Assembly (NCBI GenBank): GCA_026415695.1
Contig: JAOAGP010000119.1
Coordinates: forward strand, 1-48,256
Source of the DNA: Thermodesulfovibrionales bacterium
Lineage (GTDB): Bacteria > Nitrospirota > Thermodesulfovibrionia > Thermodesulfovibrionales > Dissulfurispiraceae
DNA length: 48,256 bases
Direction of reading: 5' to 3'
Part shown: in pieces, positions 7,915 through 48,256 of the stretch
How positions within the stretch are numbered: position 1 is the first letter of the stretch
How the letters are laid out: every line of letters starts with the position of its first letter
Program-made: the position numbers and the translations under genes
Notes under the pieces: model-generated
What the model was told of the DNA's origin: nothing
The model's input: the letters and a program-made list of their open reading frames with translations, nothing else
Database searches by the model: none

Positions 7915-8952
7915 ATGACAAATAGCACAGTGATTCCCCTTCTTGGTCTAAAGAAGGGGAATCGCAGTATCGCAGTAATATTAGCGATAATCATCATCTT
8001 TATTACCCCTATATCCTCACATGCAAAAGATACACCTATAAAGGTTATTGACTTTAGGGGTAAGACACTTACATTTCAGAAACCTGTAAGTAGGATCGTC
8101 TGCCTCATTGAAAGTGCCTTAAGTGGTCTATACATGCTTAAGCAACATGATAGAATTGTTGCAATCCCAAAGGTAGTCTATGATGGTGAGGTCTTTAAAC
8201 ACTACGCTATGCTTGACAACAGGATTAAAAATAAGACTCTGCCTTCACCGGGAAATTGGGACTTTGTAAACATTGAATCAGTGATTGCGATTAAGCCAGA
8301 TTTAGTAATAATCTGGGCAAGTCAGAAAGAGGCAATCAAATCACTTGAGGACAGGGGAATCCCTGTTTACGGGGTTTTTCTTTCAAGCATTGACGATGTC
8401 TATAAAGAAATAACTGACTTTGGCATACTTACAAATAGCCAAAAGCGTGCAAAATGGCTCATTGATTACACAAAAGGTGAGGTATCAAAGATACAAAAGA
8501 GGTTAGTTTCTATGTCAATGCAGGATAGGAAAAGGGTCTATTTCATGTGGGCTCAAGGCACCCTTGAGACATCATGTGGTGGTAGCACAGTGGATGATCT
8601 GATAAGACTATCAGGTGCCAAGAATGCTTGCAATCTCCCAAATACCGAACACACAACGGTCAACCTTGAAACACTCATAAGGTGGAATCCTGATATCATC
8701 GTCATGTGGGTAAACAACAAGAAATCCCCTCAAGATGTCATAAAAGACCCTCAACTACAGTCCATCAAGGCTATAAAGACTAAGCAGGTTTATGAACTTC
8801 CGGAGGTCTTTTTATGTGATTTATGGACATTAAAGTTTGTCTATGCAGTAAAACTCCTTGCTAAGTGGTCATATCCTGATGTCTTTAAAGACATAGATCT
8901 AATTGAGCAAAAAGAAGCGATGATCAAAAACCTTTACGGTGTCAGTATCTGA
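7915..8952 (+). CDS. Periplasmic binding protein, BtuF/FepB-type (ABC uptake)
   Basis: 345 residues with a hydrophobic signal segment (about 20-38, ending SSHA-K), a core beginning VIDFRGKTLTFQKPVSRIV, and the class III signatures IESVIAIKPDLVIIW (about 121-135) and LIRWNPDIIVMWV (about 258). These are the two lobes of cluster-A8 binding proteins for iron-siderophore, heme or cobalamin. The ATG directly abuts the receptor's stop codon (TAGATG), so the genes are coupled. The protein would collect the ligand in the periplasm and pass it to the permease at 8939. The ligand cannot be read from sequence. Confidence 0.88.
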   Translation: MTNSTVIPLLGLKKGNRSIAVILAIIIIFITPISSHAKDTPIKVIDFRGKTLTFQKPVSRIVCLIESALSGLYMLKQHDRIVAIPKVVYDGEVFKHYAMLDNRIKNKTLPSPGNWDFVNIESVIAIKPDLVIIWASQKEAIKSLEDRGIPVYGVFLSSIDDVYKEITDFGILTNSQKRAKWLIDYTKGEVSKIQKRLVSMSMQDRKRVYFMWAQGTLETSCGGSTVDDLIRLSGAKNACNLPNTEHTTVNLETLIRWNPDIIVMWVNNKKSPQDVIKDPQLQSIKAIKTKQVYELPEVFLCDLWTLKFVYAVKLLAKWSYPDVFKDIDLIEQKEAMIKNLYGVSI

Positions 8953-40155: not shown

Positions 40156-40404
40156 TTATATAAACAAAAGGGTTAGCAAAAACCTTAACCGTTCTTTTGA
40201 TATGCCAGTCTTTTTAAGAATATTATTTAATGTGCCTTTTTTAAGAGATTTATTCTTGTGTATAGGGACAGGGACTGTAATACTACCTTCTTCCGTTATT
40301 TTCTGGTATATCCTATGTGCCCCTGTTTGTCTTACTAATTGGAAACCATCTTTTTCTAAAACCGAGCAAAGCTCTTTACCAGAAATAGATGGTATCTTAC
40401 CCAT
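40156..40404 (-). CDS. hicA: HicA-type toxin (mRNA interferase)
   Basis: 82 residues, normal. The dsRNA-binding-like fold with ISGKELCSVLEKDGFQLVRQ and the catalytic-His segment TGAHRIYQK (about 28-36), then the SLKKGTLNNILKKTGIS helix, is typical of HicA, which cuts mRNA. It overlaps hicB by 8 bases and lies downstream of it (antitoxin first). It is on the opposite strand to the arsenic genes, ending 9 bases from the permease stop. Confidence 0.92.
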   Translation of the reverse strand: MGKIPSISGKELCSVLEKDGFQLVRQTGAHRIYQKITEEGSITVPVPIHKNKSLKKGTLNNILKKTGISKERLRFLLTLLFI

Positions 40405-40624
40405 TTACTACCAGTTCAAGTTCTTTTTTTGTGGTTTCAGAAGAGAAATAAGGGATGTTTTCAATACCTACCACTTCAACATATCCAACAGCAGCGTCTT
40501 TCATCATCTCTATGGCTTCATCAATGGTATCGCCTTCAGTGGTAATATCAAGCTCGGGGCAATAGACTATATAACCACCTTCTTCAGCAGGTATAAGTTC
40601 AACAGTGATTTTTATTTTTCTCAT
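40397..40624 (-). CDS. hicB: HicB-type antitoxin (short form)
   Basis: 75 residues. The partial RNase H-like fold with GGYIVYCPELDITTEGDTID (about 16-35) followed by EAIEMMKDAAVGYVE is the HicB core. There is no C-terminal DNA-binding domain, so it is the short form that binds HicA, and autoregulation is not evident. A perfect aggagg lies before the ATG. The pair splits the permease from the rest of the arsenic genes. Confidence 0.92.
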   Translation of the reverse strand: MRKIKITVELIPAEEGGYIVYCPELDITTEGDTIDEAIEMMKDAAVGYVEVVGIENIPYFSSETTKKELELVVNG

Positions 40625-44678: not shown

Positions 44679-46529
44679 ATGAAAGACAACGAATCGTTTT
44701 TTCACAAGCCAAGGCAGAACCTCAAAAACTACTGGTTCTGGATGTGTGTTATTTTGGCTTTCACATCATTTGTATCAGGCCTCATAGGTTTTCATCTTGG
44801 TTTTGCACACGATAATCAGAAGGATTTTGTGGATATTATTTATTATGCCTTACAGCTATTTACATTTCAATCATTACCTGATGGTTTGAGAGAAAATGGG
44901 TTTATTAAGTTTGCTAAACTATTTGCCCCTGTATCAATTGCCCTTTTTTCTTTTCAAGCATTTTACCTACTCTTGTCAGAGCACATTATGATGCTCAATC
45001 TTTCAACATACAAAAACCATGTCGTTATTTGTGGATTAGGGACAAAAGGGATGTTCTTCGTAAACAGGAGTTTATCAGAAGGTAAAAAAGTTGCTGTCAT
45101 TGAGAAATCCAATGAAAACATTGACATTACCGCATGCAAATCACAAAAGGTGCCCGTTATTATTGGAGACATATCAGAAGATGTGATATTAAACAGTATT
45201 AGGTATCAATATGCAAGCAGTATCTATATCCTTACTGGGAATGACATGATAAACATCTCAACAGCCCGAAAATTGAGAGACAATATCGTATGCAATCTAA
45301 AATCATCAGGGCATAAAAAGGTCTGCTACACACACATTAACAGCATTGATTTAAAAACATGTATTGAGGGTGATGACTGGATTACCACAGGAACTGAATG
45401 CTTTGAGCTACGGTTATTTAACATCTACGAAATGGTGTCAAGGTGTATTGTAAAAGACATCCCCATTGAGCCAAGTGGAAAGAGTGTCGTTAATGTTGAA
45501 AACCCTTCCGTCATTGTCATTGGCTTTAGTGCAATGGGAAACGCCCTTGTAAAACAGTTAATTAGAATGAAGGTATATCCAAATGATAAGAGACTGAAAA
45601 TAACCATCATTGACAAGGACGCATATCAACATCAAAAGATATTTCATTCAATCTATTCCTATTCTTCTGAAAACCCCAAACTGGTGTTTAAAAATGTTGA
45701 GATTGCCTTTGTTTCAATGGACATTTACACTATCCACGCCATAGACGACCTTAAATGCGATAAAAATGCAGACCTCCCTCACAATATTTACATTTGTATA
45801 GATGATGATGTTTTAACAGAGATACTAACAAACAAGATTAAAACCTCAATCCCACCAGACACCAAACATGAAATAAAAATAATCTCCTGCTACACTGGTC
45901 ATTCTGTCAAAACAGAGAAGTTTAATAATAATCCGAAGGTAGAAATATACAAAATCAATATCAAGGAAGAAGGTTGTAGGTCTTTAATTGATTTAGATAA
46001 GATAGACACCATCGCAAGGATGATACATTCTAATTTTTTTAATCAGACATTTCGTAATTATAACTCTGTTAGTGATGGGATAAAAAAGGATGTAGAAAAA
46101 CTGTTATGTGATACTGAAAAATCAGTCTTTGAAAAAGAGGCTGAAATCAGAAAAAAATATCCTGAAGAGGTCAACAAGATTGTTAAAGAGAAACCAAGCC
46201 GTAAACCATGGCATGAACTTAAGGAGGAGTTTAAAAACTCCAATAGACATCAGGCAGACCACATCATTGATAAGATTAGAGCCCTAAACCCAAACTTTAC
46301 TTTACGGACAAATCATTCAGAAATAGAAAAAGCAATAAACAAAGGCAACAATCTTGACCTCCTTGCAGAACTTGAATACAAACGATACTGGGCTGAAAAG
46401 CATGTATTAGGACAAAAGATTGACTTTAAACCTTTTGACAAAATTGAAGAAAATGAAAAAGACTTGAACAGAGAAATCATAAGATCAATCCCTAAACTCA
46501 TACGAGACTATCAAAAGAGGGGGATGTAA
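44679..46529 (+). CDS. Channel-like TM protein with two RCK/TrkA-N domains and RyR-like tail
   Basis: 616 residues. Two membrane helices (about 19-42 and 76-101) enclose a pore-loop-like segment (IIYYALQLFTFQ, 53-64), the layout of two-TM potassium channels, but no TVGYG filter is present. Then come two Rossmann units: HVVICGLGTKGMFFV (114-128; GLGTKG) and VIVIGFSAMGNALVKQ (278-293; GFSAMG), like tandem RCK/TrkA-N domains that gate channels on nucleotide or ion binding. The last 56 residues (LLAELEYKRYWAEK, then NREIIRSIPKLI) resemble a degenerate RyR domain. The stand-alone RyR gene begins 1 base after its stop codon. It could be a nucleotide-gated channel effector; whether it conducts ions is unknown. 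Confidence 0.82.
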   Translation: MKDNESFFHKPRQNLKNYWFWMCVILAFTSFVSGLIGFHLGFAHDNQKDFVDIIYYALQLFTFQSLPDGLRENGFIKFAKLFAPVSIALFSFQAFYLLLSEHIMMLNLSTYKNHVVICGLGTKGMFFVNRSLSEGKKVAVIEKSNENIDITACKSQKVPVIIGDISEDVILNSIRYQYASSIYILTGNDMINISTARKLRDNIVCNLKSSGHKKVCYTHINSIDLKTCIEGDDWITTGTECFELRLFNIYEMVSRCIVKDIPIEPSGKSVVNVENPSVIVIGFSAMGNALVKQLIRMKVYPNDKRLKITIIDKDAYQHQKIFHSIYSYSSENPKLVFKNVEIAFVSMDIYTIHAIDDLKCDKNADLPHNIYICIDDDVLTEILTNKIKTSIPPDTKHEIKIISCYTGHSVKTEKFNNNPKVEIYKINIKEEGCRSLIDLDKIDTIARMIHSNFFNQTFRNYNSVSDGIKKDVEKLLCDTEKSVFEKEAEIRKKYPEEVNKIVKEKPSRKPWHELKEEFKNSNRHQADHIIDKIRALNPNFTLRTNHSEIEKAINKGNNLDLLAELEYKRYWAEKHVLGQKIDFKPFDKIEENEKDLNREIIRSIPKLIRDYQKRGM

Positions 46530-46530
46530 A

Positions 46531-46782
46531 ATGAGTGAAGATTTTATTTTAGATGAACAAACACTTGAAAAACTTGCTGCAATAGCCCATCAGGTGTGGA
46601 TGGAGGGCAAGATAAGGGACGGTTGGAGGCAAGGCGATGTCATAGACAAAGTAAATAAGATACACACATGCCTTGTCCCTTACGAACAACTAAGCGAGGC
46701 AGATAAGGAATCAGACAGAGACATGGTAAGGGGAATCCCCAGAATATTAGATATGGCTGGATATAAGATTGTAAAGAAGTAG
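46531..46782 (+). CDS. Stand-alone RyR-domain protein
   Basis: 83 residues, essentially one RyR domain (the repeat of ryanodine receptors, PF02026-like). Matching positions are LEKLAAIAHQVWMEGK (residues 12-27), GWRQGD (31-36), IHTCLVPYEQLSEADKESDR (44-63) and VRGIPRILDMAGY (66-78). The family pattern is LA-x2-H-x2-W, GW-x-G, then HP-x-LVPY. It begins 1 base after the previous stop, with aaaaga before the ATG. It may bind a nucleotide ligand and dock on the channel-like protein, whose tail has the same fold; both points are inferred. Confidence 0.85.
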   Translation: MSEDFILDEQTLEKLAAIAHQVWMEGKIRDGWRQGDVIDKVNKIHTCLVPYEQLSEADKESDRDMVRGIPRILDMAGYKIVKK

Positions 46783-46820: not shown

Positions 46821-48256
46821 ATGCAATGTTCATCATGTAATTCTTTGATGACAAAGGGTAGGAGGTTTTGGTTTTGTGAAGAATGTGGTAACAAGGTAGA
46901 AATCTCTAAAGAGACTATCACCACACCTAAAAGACTTAAGATATTTCTCAGCTACGGACACGATAAAAATGAGCCACTTGTCATGAAGATTAAGCATGAC
47001 ATAGAAGCCCTTGGTCATGATGTCTGGATTGATAAAAGTGAGATTAAATTCACCGACGACTGGAGACTTGCCATCTCTGAAGGCATTATGAGTTCTGACT
47101 GGTTCTTTTCATTCCTCTCAAAACACTCTACACGAGACCCCGGTGTATGTCTTGATGAAATAGGCGTAGCAATTTCTGTAAAGGGCGCAAACCTTGCGAC
47201 TATCCTTGTAGAAAGTGAAAAAGAGGTAAAACCACCAACCACTATTTCACATATTCAATGGCTTGATATGCATGACTGGTCTGAAAAAGGCGGATTTGAT
47301 AGCAAAGAGTTTAAAGAATGGTATGAGGAGAAATTTACAGAGATTAGGAAAGTATTAGAGAGTGAAACCACACAGCGATTTGCTGGAGAGATTGAAAAAC
47401 TCAAACAATTGCTGTTACCTATACCGATTGATGCCTTTACAGCGAGTCTATTGAAACAGGGGTTTACTGGTAGGCAGTGGCTTTTTGAGGAAATCAGACA
47501 ATGGGCAGAAGATATAAATAGTGAAAGGGCTATTATACTTACAGGTGAACCGGGTGTAGGTAAGACTGCTTTTATGGCATGGCTTTCACATTTCAACAAG
47601 GCTAATGTCCTTGCATCATTTTTCATAAGAAACAAACAGCCCCAATACTCTGACACCCTTCGTATAATCAAGACCCTTGCCTTTCAGATTGCAACAAGAC
47701 TACCTGATTACAGGAAGTTTCTATTAAAACTGCCCGAGATAAATGATCTAAGAGCAAAAAATGAGCACGAGCTCTTTACCTATCTCATTACAGAGCCTCT
47801 ACACATTTGTATTGATGGTGGAAGACAAACAGGATTAATCCTCATAGATGCCCTTGATGAGGCAGATGACAGTGGTAAAAGTATTTCAAATTTGCTTGTG
47901 AAGTATATACCAGAGTTGCCAAAATGGGTAAAACTACTTGCTACTACAAGACCTGAGCCAAAGATCATGCCAATACTTTCTGGCTTACACCCTCGTAAGA
48001 TTGACAGTGGTGATGAAAGAAACAGGAGGGATATATTCATTTACCTAAAAGACAGGCTCAAATCAAAGGACCCTTCAGATGAGACAATCACAGCCATTGT
48101 TAAAAAAAGTGAGGGAATCTTTCTCTATGCCAGATATGTTGCTGATGAGGTGCTAAGTAACAATCTATCTCTTGATAGGATTGATGAGTTTCCATTAGGA
48201 CTTGGTGGTATCTACAGCCAGTATTTTAATAGGCAGTTTCCTGACATTGAAAGTTA
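46821..48256 (+). CDS. Zinc ribbon-TIR-STAND NTPase (partial at right edge)
   Basis: 478 residues before the window ends, no stop. An N-terminal zinc ribbon (Cys3, 6, 19, 22) precedes a TIR domain (about 39-131; LKIFLSYGHDKNEPLVMKI), WIDKSEIKFTDDWRLAISEG, and CLDEIGVA with Glu113 as the likely NADase catalytic acid. A STAND/NACHT NTPase follows: FTGRQWLFEEI (215-225), Walker A GEPGVGKT (242-249), Walker B LILIDALDEAD (339-349) and LLATTRPEP (372-380). The order resembles TIR-NACHT immune receptors and eukaryotic NPHP3/TANC-like STAND proteins. A sensor repeat region would be expected beyond the edge. It lies 38 bases after the RyR gene, so all three are probably one operon. Confidence 0.9.
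   Translation, partial: MQCSSCNSLMTKGRRFWFCEECGNKVEISKETITTPKRLKIFLSYGHDKNEPLVMKIKHDIEALGHDVWIDKSEIKFTDDWRLAISEGIMSSDWFFSFLSKHSTRDPGVCLDEIGVAISVKGANLATILVESEKEVKPPTTISHIQWLDMHDWSEKGGFDSKEFKEWYEEKFTEIRKVLESETTQRFAGEIEKLKQLLLPIPIDAFTASLLKQGFTGRQWLFEEIRQWAEDINSERAIILTGEPGVGKTAFMAWLSHFNKANVLASFFIRNKQPQYSDTLRIIKTLAFQIATRLPDYRKFLLKLPEINDLRAKNEHELFTYLITEPLHICIDGGRQTGLILIDALDEADDSGKSISNLLVKYIPELPKWVKLLATTRPEPKIMPILSGLHPRKIDSGDERNRRDIFIYLKDRLKSKDPSDETITAIVKKSEGIFLYARYVADEVLSNNLSLDRIDEFPLGLGGIYSQYFNRQFPDIES

Follow-up and report, generated by a model that had tools for sequence, protein, structure and literature searches.

The window analysed here, a stretch of 48,256 nucleotides that makes up the entire contig C46, contains at positions 46531-46782 a real gene encoding a complete RyR domain. 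The product of this gene, the stand-alone RyR protein P0001, probably belongs to an unrecognised bacterial alarm system resembling the supposed regulation of animal RyR channels. More specifically, we see an even chance that P0001 is the receptor subunit for an NAD-derived signal in a defence module leading from a TIR protein to a channel. In such a module, the TIR-NACHT protein would sense an invader and make a signal from NAD+, most probably one of the cyclic ADP-ribose isomers 2'cADPR and 3'cADPR. P0001, dimeric or paired with the RyR repeats of the channel, would hold the signal between residues H20, W23, H45, and D62, and the binding would be passed on to channel opening. The channel, a membrane protein that combines an RCK gating ring with two RyR repeats, would be the effector; its opening would arrest the growth of the infected cell or kill it.

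A broader claim, which we put forward tentatively and with less confidence, is that a widespread bacterial system exists in which a TIR-made cyclic ADP-ribose isomer binds RyR repeats and opens an RCK-type pore, these repeats being located partly in a small, separate RyR subunit and partly in the channel, as an R12-like tandem. Direct action of cADPR on animal RyR channels, and its site, have been disputed for decades, and such a system would be the bacterial counterpart of this control. Bacterial operons of this kind, with RyR, channel, and TIR genes together, would then be a compact system in which to test how an NAD-derived signal controls RyRs. They would also extend the TIR defence systems (which were reportedly surveyed by Yirmiya et al. 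2025) by an effector of the channel type, and help explain why many phages carry signal-binding RyR-domain proteins. No description of a cellular RyR-channel-TIR module was found in the literature searched, an earlier description being possible, and the RyR-cADPR link itself has already been published for phages (PMC13232231).

The RyR gene and its neighbours

The locus contains the following features.

44679-46529, plus strand: gene for an RCK-type channel of 616 aa with C-terminal RyR repeats (Pfam TrkA_N, profiles, AF2)
44679-45008, plus strand: two TM helices and a pore-loop-like segment, YYALQLFTFQSLPDG, with no GYG filter (alignment, AF2 model)
46005-46301, plus strand: RyR-a, the first RyR repeat of the channel, residues 443-541, divergent (hhalign)
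46329-46517, plus strand: RyR-b, the second RyR repeat of the channel, residues 551-613 (hhalign)
46531-46782, plus strand: gene for the stand-alone RyR protein P0001, 83 aa (ORF, Pfam, AF2, Foldseek)
46555-46773, plus strand: RyR core of P0001, residues 9-81 (Pfam PF02026)
46821-48256 (contig end), plus strand: gene for a protein with a Zn-ribbon-like N-terminus, a TIR domain, and a NACHT/NPHP3 ATPase (Pfam)
46941-47285, plus strand: TIR domain (Pfam TIR_2)
47157-47159, plus strand: candidate catalytic Glu, E113, in GVCLDEIG (TIR alignment)

The P0001 ORF starts with ATG and stops with TAG, and the opposite strand of the same interval has stops throughout. Pfam PF02026 matched P0001 over the whole domain with 65.8 bits (E = 4e-18, curated cut-off 27.4), and AF2 predicted the RyR fold with high confidence (mean pLDDT 92.7); both bear out the original prediction of an 83-residue protein made almost wholly of a RyR domain. 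A search of PDB sequences with P0001 gave 61 matches (E ≤ 1), almost all being RyR entries from animals and Bacteroides thetaiotaomicron. P0001 shares 68-76% identity with RyRs of other bacteria, indicating a conserved gene rather than a chance ORF. The best fold match was the putative ryanodine receptor of B. thetaiotaomicron (6ug5/3nrt, E = 3e-6, TM ~0.74), and the human RyR3 Repeat12 (R12) domain was also among the matches, both with a Foldseek probability of 1.00. The B. thetaiotaomicron protein (3nrt, 4n05, 6uag, 6ug5) is a single bacterial RyR protein like P0001, to which it is ~34% identical, and it has been crystallised as open and closed dimers. No ligand or function for it was reported in the literature searched.

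P0001 starts 1 nt past the channel stop codon and ends 38 nt before the TIR gene, all on one strand, which confirms its predicted position between a channel-like gene and a TIR gene and gives the locus an operon-like layout. However, P0001 is not the only RyR domain at the locus, since the adjacent channel has two divergent C-terminal RyR repeats. Across the genome (2.2 Mb, 99.7% complete), only one RyR match exceeded the Pfam cut-off and only one TIR_2 match was found; the two are neighbours at this locus, and we estimate the chance of the sole RyR adjoining the sole TIR at ~0.1% for ~2,000 genes. The relatives searched, from the genus and family of this genome, lacked a RyR, and their channel matches were partial, weak, and RCK-type, with no full-length channel, so the module is accessory. 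Upstream of the channel are housekeeping genes for a phosphopantetheinyl transferase and a phosphoesterase (Pfam). Promoter and terminator scans gave no more matches than shuffled sequences. Elsewhere in the window, two ORFs of 75 and 82 aa (40156-40624, minus strand) resemble, on visual inspection, a HicB/HicA toxin-antitoxin pair and adjoin arsenic-type genes.

The channel gene contains a TrkA_N domain (Pfam, E = 1e-13), and the profile of its family matched GsuK (4gx0/4gx5) and MthK from about residue 26, including the TM part. The AF2 model of the channel (pLDDT 79) had GsuK as its top Foldseek match and showed helices at residues 6-44, 50-60, and 74-109, with pLDDT below 50 at residues 1-15 and 62-68. 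In a VIA comparison the model matched RCK gating rings with Z of 18-20; this comparison of the full model is dominated by the RCK domains, and the RyR tail was assessed by profiles. The window channel thus shares with GsuK and MthK, by profile and fold match, two TM helices and an RCK gating ring, but it differs from them in having extra C-terminal RyR repeats, a TIR gene nearby, and no GYG selectivity filter. A pore-loop alignment of seven homologs showed LQLF-type motifs in place of GYG. Because the filter is missing, we can only infer ion flow, and this counts against the receptor-subunit reading.

The RyR tail comprises the C-terminal 170 residues of the channel and consists of two repeats. 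RyR-a aligned with stand-alone RyRs with an hhalign probability of 96.9 (E = 1.9e-10), RyR-b of the channel family did so with a probability of 99.8 (E = 5e-28), and the channel-family profile found human RyR3 R12 chains (E = 6e-8). The arrangement of RyR-a and RyR-b resembles the R12 region of animal RyRs, where RyR repeats occur in tandem within a channel, and P0001 corresponds to one repeat. Unlike the animal receptors, the window channel is a two-TM RCK protein of ~600 aa without the animal RyR pore or giant cytosolic assembly, and its first repeat is divergent.

On the other side of P0001, the TIR domain was well supported (TIR_2, E = 2e-18), and the match to the Zn-ribbon-like N-terminus was weak. 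The Glu at the candidate catalytic position was invariant in the TIR alignment and aligned with the Glu of the AbTIR/AaTIR/PdTIR segment; the nearest solved relatives of the TIR profile were PdTIR, AaTIR, AbTIR, and Cat1. At L045, in a genome from Verrucomicrobia, a stand-alone RyR is accompanied by a TIR domain 64% identical to this one. The 3' end of the TIR gene is cut by the assembly, and no continuation was found on other contigs of the genome. As in Thoeris, which combines the TIR protein ThsB with an effector, the TIR gene sits beside a predicted receptor/effector, and its predicted product would be a cADPR-type signal. However, unlike in Thoeris, the protein here combines its TIR domain with a Zn ribbon and a NACHT ATPase, and no Thoeris effector of the ThsA type (SIR2/SLOG, TM-Macro, caspase) was detected by Pfam or PADLOC among the neighbouring genes of a contig that ends within the TIR gene. 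PADLOC recognised no defence system here.

Contact residues and candidate ligands

Phage RyR proteins have been shown to bind 2'/3'cADPR. Six of eight homologs tested did so, with nanomolar Kd in both of those measured, and one phage protein, RyDEP, hydrolyses 2'/3'cADPR; H75, W78, H100, and D117 are named as its contacts (PMC13232231, preprint of 2026-05-29). Much of the question of what bacterial RyR domains bind, which the original prediction treated as untouched, has therefore been answered by this phage work. All four RyDEP contact residues are kept in P0001 with the same spacing (alignment; roles from PMC13232231).

46588-46590, plus strand: H20, equivalent to RyDEP H75 (catalytic, terminal ribose)
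46597-46599, plus strand: W23, equivalent to RyDEP W78 (stacks on adenine)
46663-46665, plus strand: H45, equivalent to RyDEP H100 (phosphate contact)
46714-46716, plus strand: D62, equivalent to RyDEP D117 (second residue of the catalytic dyad)

These residues were almost invariant among stand-alone RyRs (n = 77; H 76/76, W 76/76, H 71/77, D 76/76) and among viral RyRs (n = 80; kept in 80, 79, 79, and 78, respectively). The RyR-b repeats of the channel family (n = 52) kept them in 51, 46, 44, and 45 cases. In the window channel, the four positions of RyR-b read Y, Y, gap, and N, so that all four residues are lost. This loss suggests that ligand binding here has passed to the small protein; P0001 would then be the main signal-binding part at this locus.

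The original prediction that the ligand is NAD-derived is thus well supported by the binding properties of the phage proteins and by the four retained contact positions. A possible alternative is that P0001 binds an ordinary adenine nucleotide, or NAD(H)/ADP-ribose, instead of a TIR-specific isomer, and that the module senses energy or NAD+ collapse. The R12 repeat pair of human RyR3 holds AMP-PCP/ADP in its cleft (PMC12627627, 2025), with a Trp stacked on the adenine, as for the RyDEP equivalent of W23; GsuK, the nearest solved relative of the channel, was crystallised with NAD and ADP; and TIR proteins can simply deplete NAD+. However, each of the four named contact positions in P0001 agrees with the phage proteins that bind cADPR, and the surroundings of stand-alone RyRs are enriched in TIR genes (see below); we consider an ordinary nucleotide improbable as the ligand.

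The role of P0001 is less constrained than its ligand class. A small stand-alone sensor had been predicted, but a buffer or a hydrolase would fit the sequence equally well. In particular, P0001 may be an off-switch that removes the TIR signal by sequestration or hydrolysis, so that the channel stays quiet below a threshold, for which ring nucleases in type III CRISPR offer a comparison alongside the RyDEP sponge/glycosidase. The RyDEP fold and the H/D catalytic dyad are present in P0001, and a single RyR domain suffices for hydrolysis or sequestration in phages (PMC13232231). Moreover, the RyR repeats of most channels in this family retain the contact residues, and such channels could sense alone and might need no separate receptor. 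It should be noted, however, that the other tested phage homologs at most bind and do not cleave the signal despite their conserved residues (PMC13232231), and that the loss of contacts from RyR-b of the window channel leaves no other obvious receptor. We therefore regard an off-switch as unlikely, although clearly better placed than an ordinary-nucleotide sensor. Since hydrolysing and binding-only phage RyRs share the same residues, channel opening, buffering, and degradation cannot be told apart by sequence. No binding, enzyme, or phage test of a cellular RyR protein was found in the literature searched.

Relation to phage RyR proteins

Phages frequently encode RyR proteins (247 records), and these counteract Thoeris (PMC13232231). 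Like P0001, members of the RyDEP family are small PF02026 proteins with the four named residues at equivalent positions. However, RyDEP is phage-encoded and anti-immune, whereas P0001 is bacterial and has an operon-like layout with TIR and channel genes. In a FastTree phylogeny of 241 tips, to be read loosely as it was built from ~73 columns, RyDEP and 66 viral sequences formed their own clade (local support 0.97), apart from the P0001 clade (0.93). The closest sequences to P0001 were a Desulfobulbus RyR and a broken RyR from a member of the same order (L014). In the latter, the RyR (8150-8308) directly follows a channel gene and is broken by a frame change, and the channel gene and the TIR-NACHT gene, which has a Zn-ribbon, are intact.

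This tree disfavours a phage origin of P0001. Although the P0001 clade includes a sequence from one viral contig, none of the genes around P0001 was recognised as a phage gene, those upstream are housekeeping genes, and the channel linkage recurs across phyla. It is thus very improbable that P0001 is a captured phage anti-Thoeris gene or a prophage remnant that came to lie beside the TIR gene by chance. The viral member (L104:3001-3231) comes from an uncultured viral contig, is 61% identical to P0001, and lies beside a coat-like gene; it may be a sponge that a phage has copied from hosts of this family.

Genomic neighbourhoods of stand-alone RyR genes

A scan of 84,980 species with the stand-alone RyR as query gave 80 loci, in which 75 stand-alone RyR ORFs were counted, including that of the window; many of these loci are from Bacteroidales and are not independent. 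The channel family was found within 5 kb of 37 of the 75, on the same strand in 35 of these 37. The two genes were directly adjacent in 22 cases, with several 4-nt overlaps and both gene orders. The linkage was seen in Bacteroidota, Bacillota, Verrucomicrobiota, and Nitrospirota, and in divergent orientation in Planctomycetota. A cultured relative, Cytobacillus gottheilii (L067), has all three genes of the module, for the stand-alone RyR, the channel, and the TIR protein. Channel density was 104/Mb at 0-2 kb and 16-24/Mb at 2-10 kb. The other 38 stand-alone RyRs, some of them at contig ends, had no channel within 5 kb.

TIR genes were found within 5 kb of 32 of the 75 stand-alone RyRs, and genes for DUF4062 proteins, recently shown to be TIR-like NADases (PMC13174449), flanked some others (six of the 75). 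TIR density was 48-82/Mb and flat over 10 kb, and the whole genomes of the hosts mostly contained 0-11 TIR genes (median ~2; one 9-Mb genome has 30). Because the enrichment shows no decay with distance, we rejected a close partnership between TIR and stand-alone RyR; TIR is generally a partner at the level of the island and merely happens to be adjacent here. Clustering of defence islands alone could yield such an enrichment. The channel is thus the tight partner of the stand-alone RyR, and the TIR link is real but looser. For the RyR and channel proteins of this locus and its relatives, PADLOC and NCBIfam named no system, and PHROGs gave families of unknown function only.

A single natural fusion joins a channel to a RyR of the stand-alone type (L084), although this sequence comes from one MAG and may reflect misassembly. 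Other fusion partners of RyR domains are RelA/SpoT-SLOG, kinase, AAA, and SLATT-type proteins, a pattern also shown by sensor domains. Such fusions to effectors and enzymes, together with that of L084, suggest a direct sensing part, which argues for P0001 as a receptor subunit and against an off-switch.

Upstream of the stand-alone RyR, channel, and TIR genes, Bacteroidales have a two-gene arrangement: a sigma-factor-like gene (~185-190 aa) and, after it, a gene for a protein of 310-320 aa with a C-terminal RyR (L034:824-2315, L031, L035, L054, L062, L070, L075, L077, L082). From its appearance, this pair would place transcription under the control of a RyR ligand. Proteins with a kinase-like N-terminus (PfkB-like by eye), an AAA ATPase, and a C-terminal RyR were found at L020:375-3098, L021:7511-10321, L041:360-3062, and L045:1240-4062, and a kinase-like/AAA protein without the C-terminal RyR at L012:12650-14734. 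Their genes adjoin stand-alone RyRs of the P0001 clade or lie near TIR/DUF4062 NADase genes.

RelA/SpoT-type synthetases with SLOG/TPR and a C-terminal RyR occur at L011:8420-16676 (on a contig shared with L042), L013, L041, and L091, with Nudix and SLATT membrane genes alongside, as if the RyR were a sensor in a second nucleotide system. Further RyR fusions involve a Ser/Thr protein kinase in Planctomycetes (L076:4466-5809) and a SLATT-type 2TM effector (L080:853-3105). In a Scalindua genome, highly similar RyR starts lie at two contig ends (L018:2-211 and L020:2-211), suggesting several copies that break the assembly.
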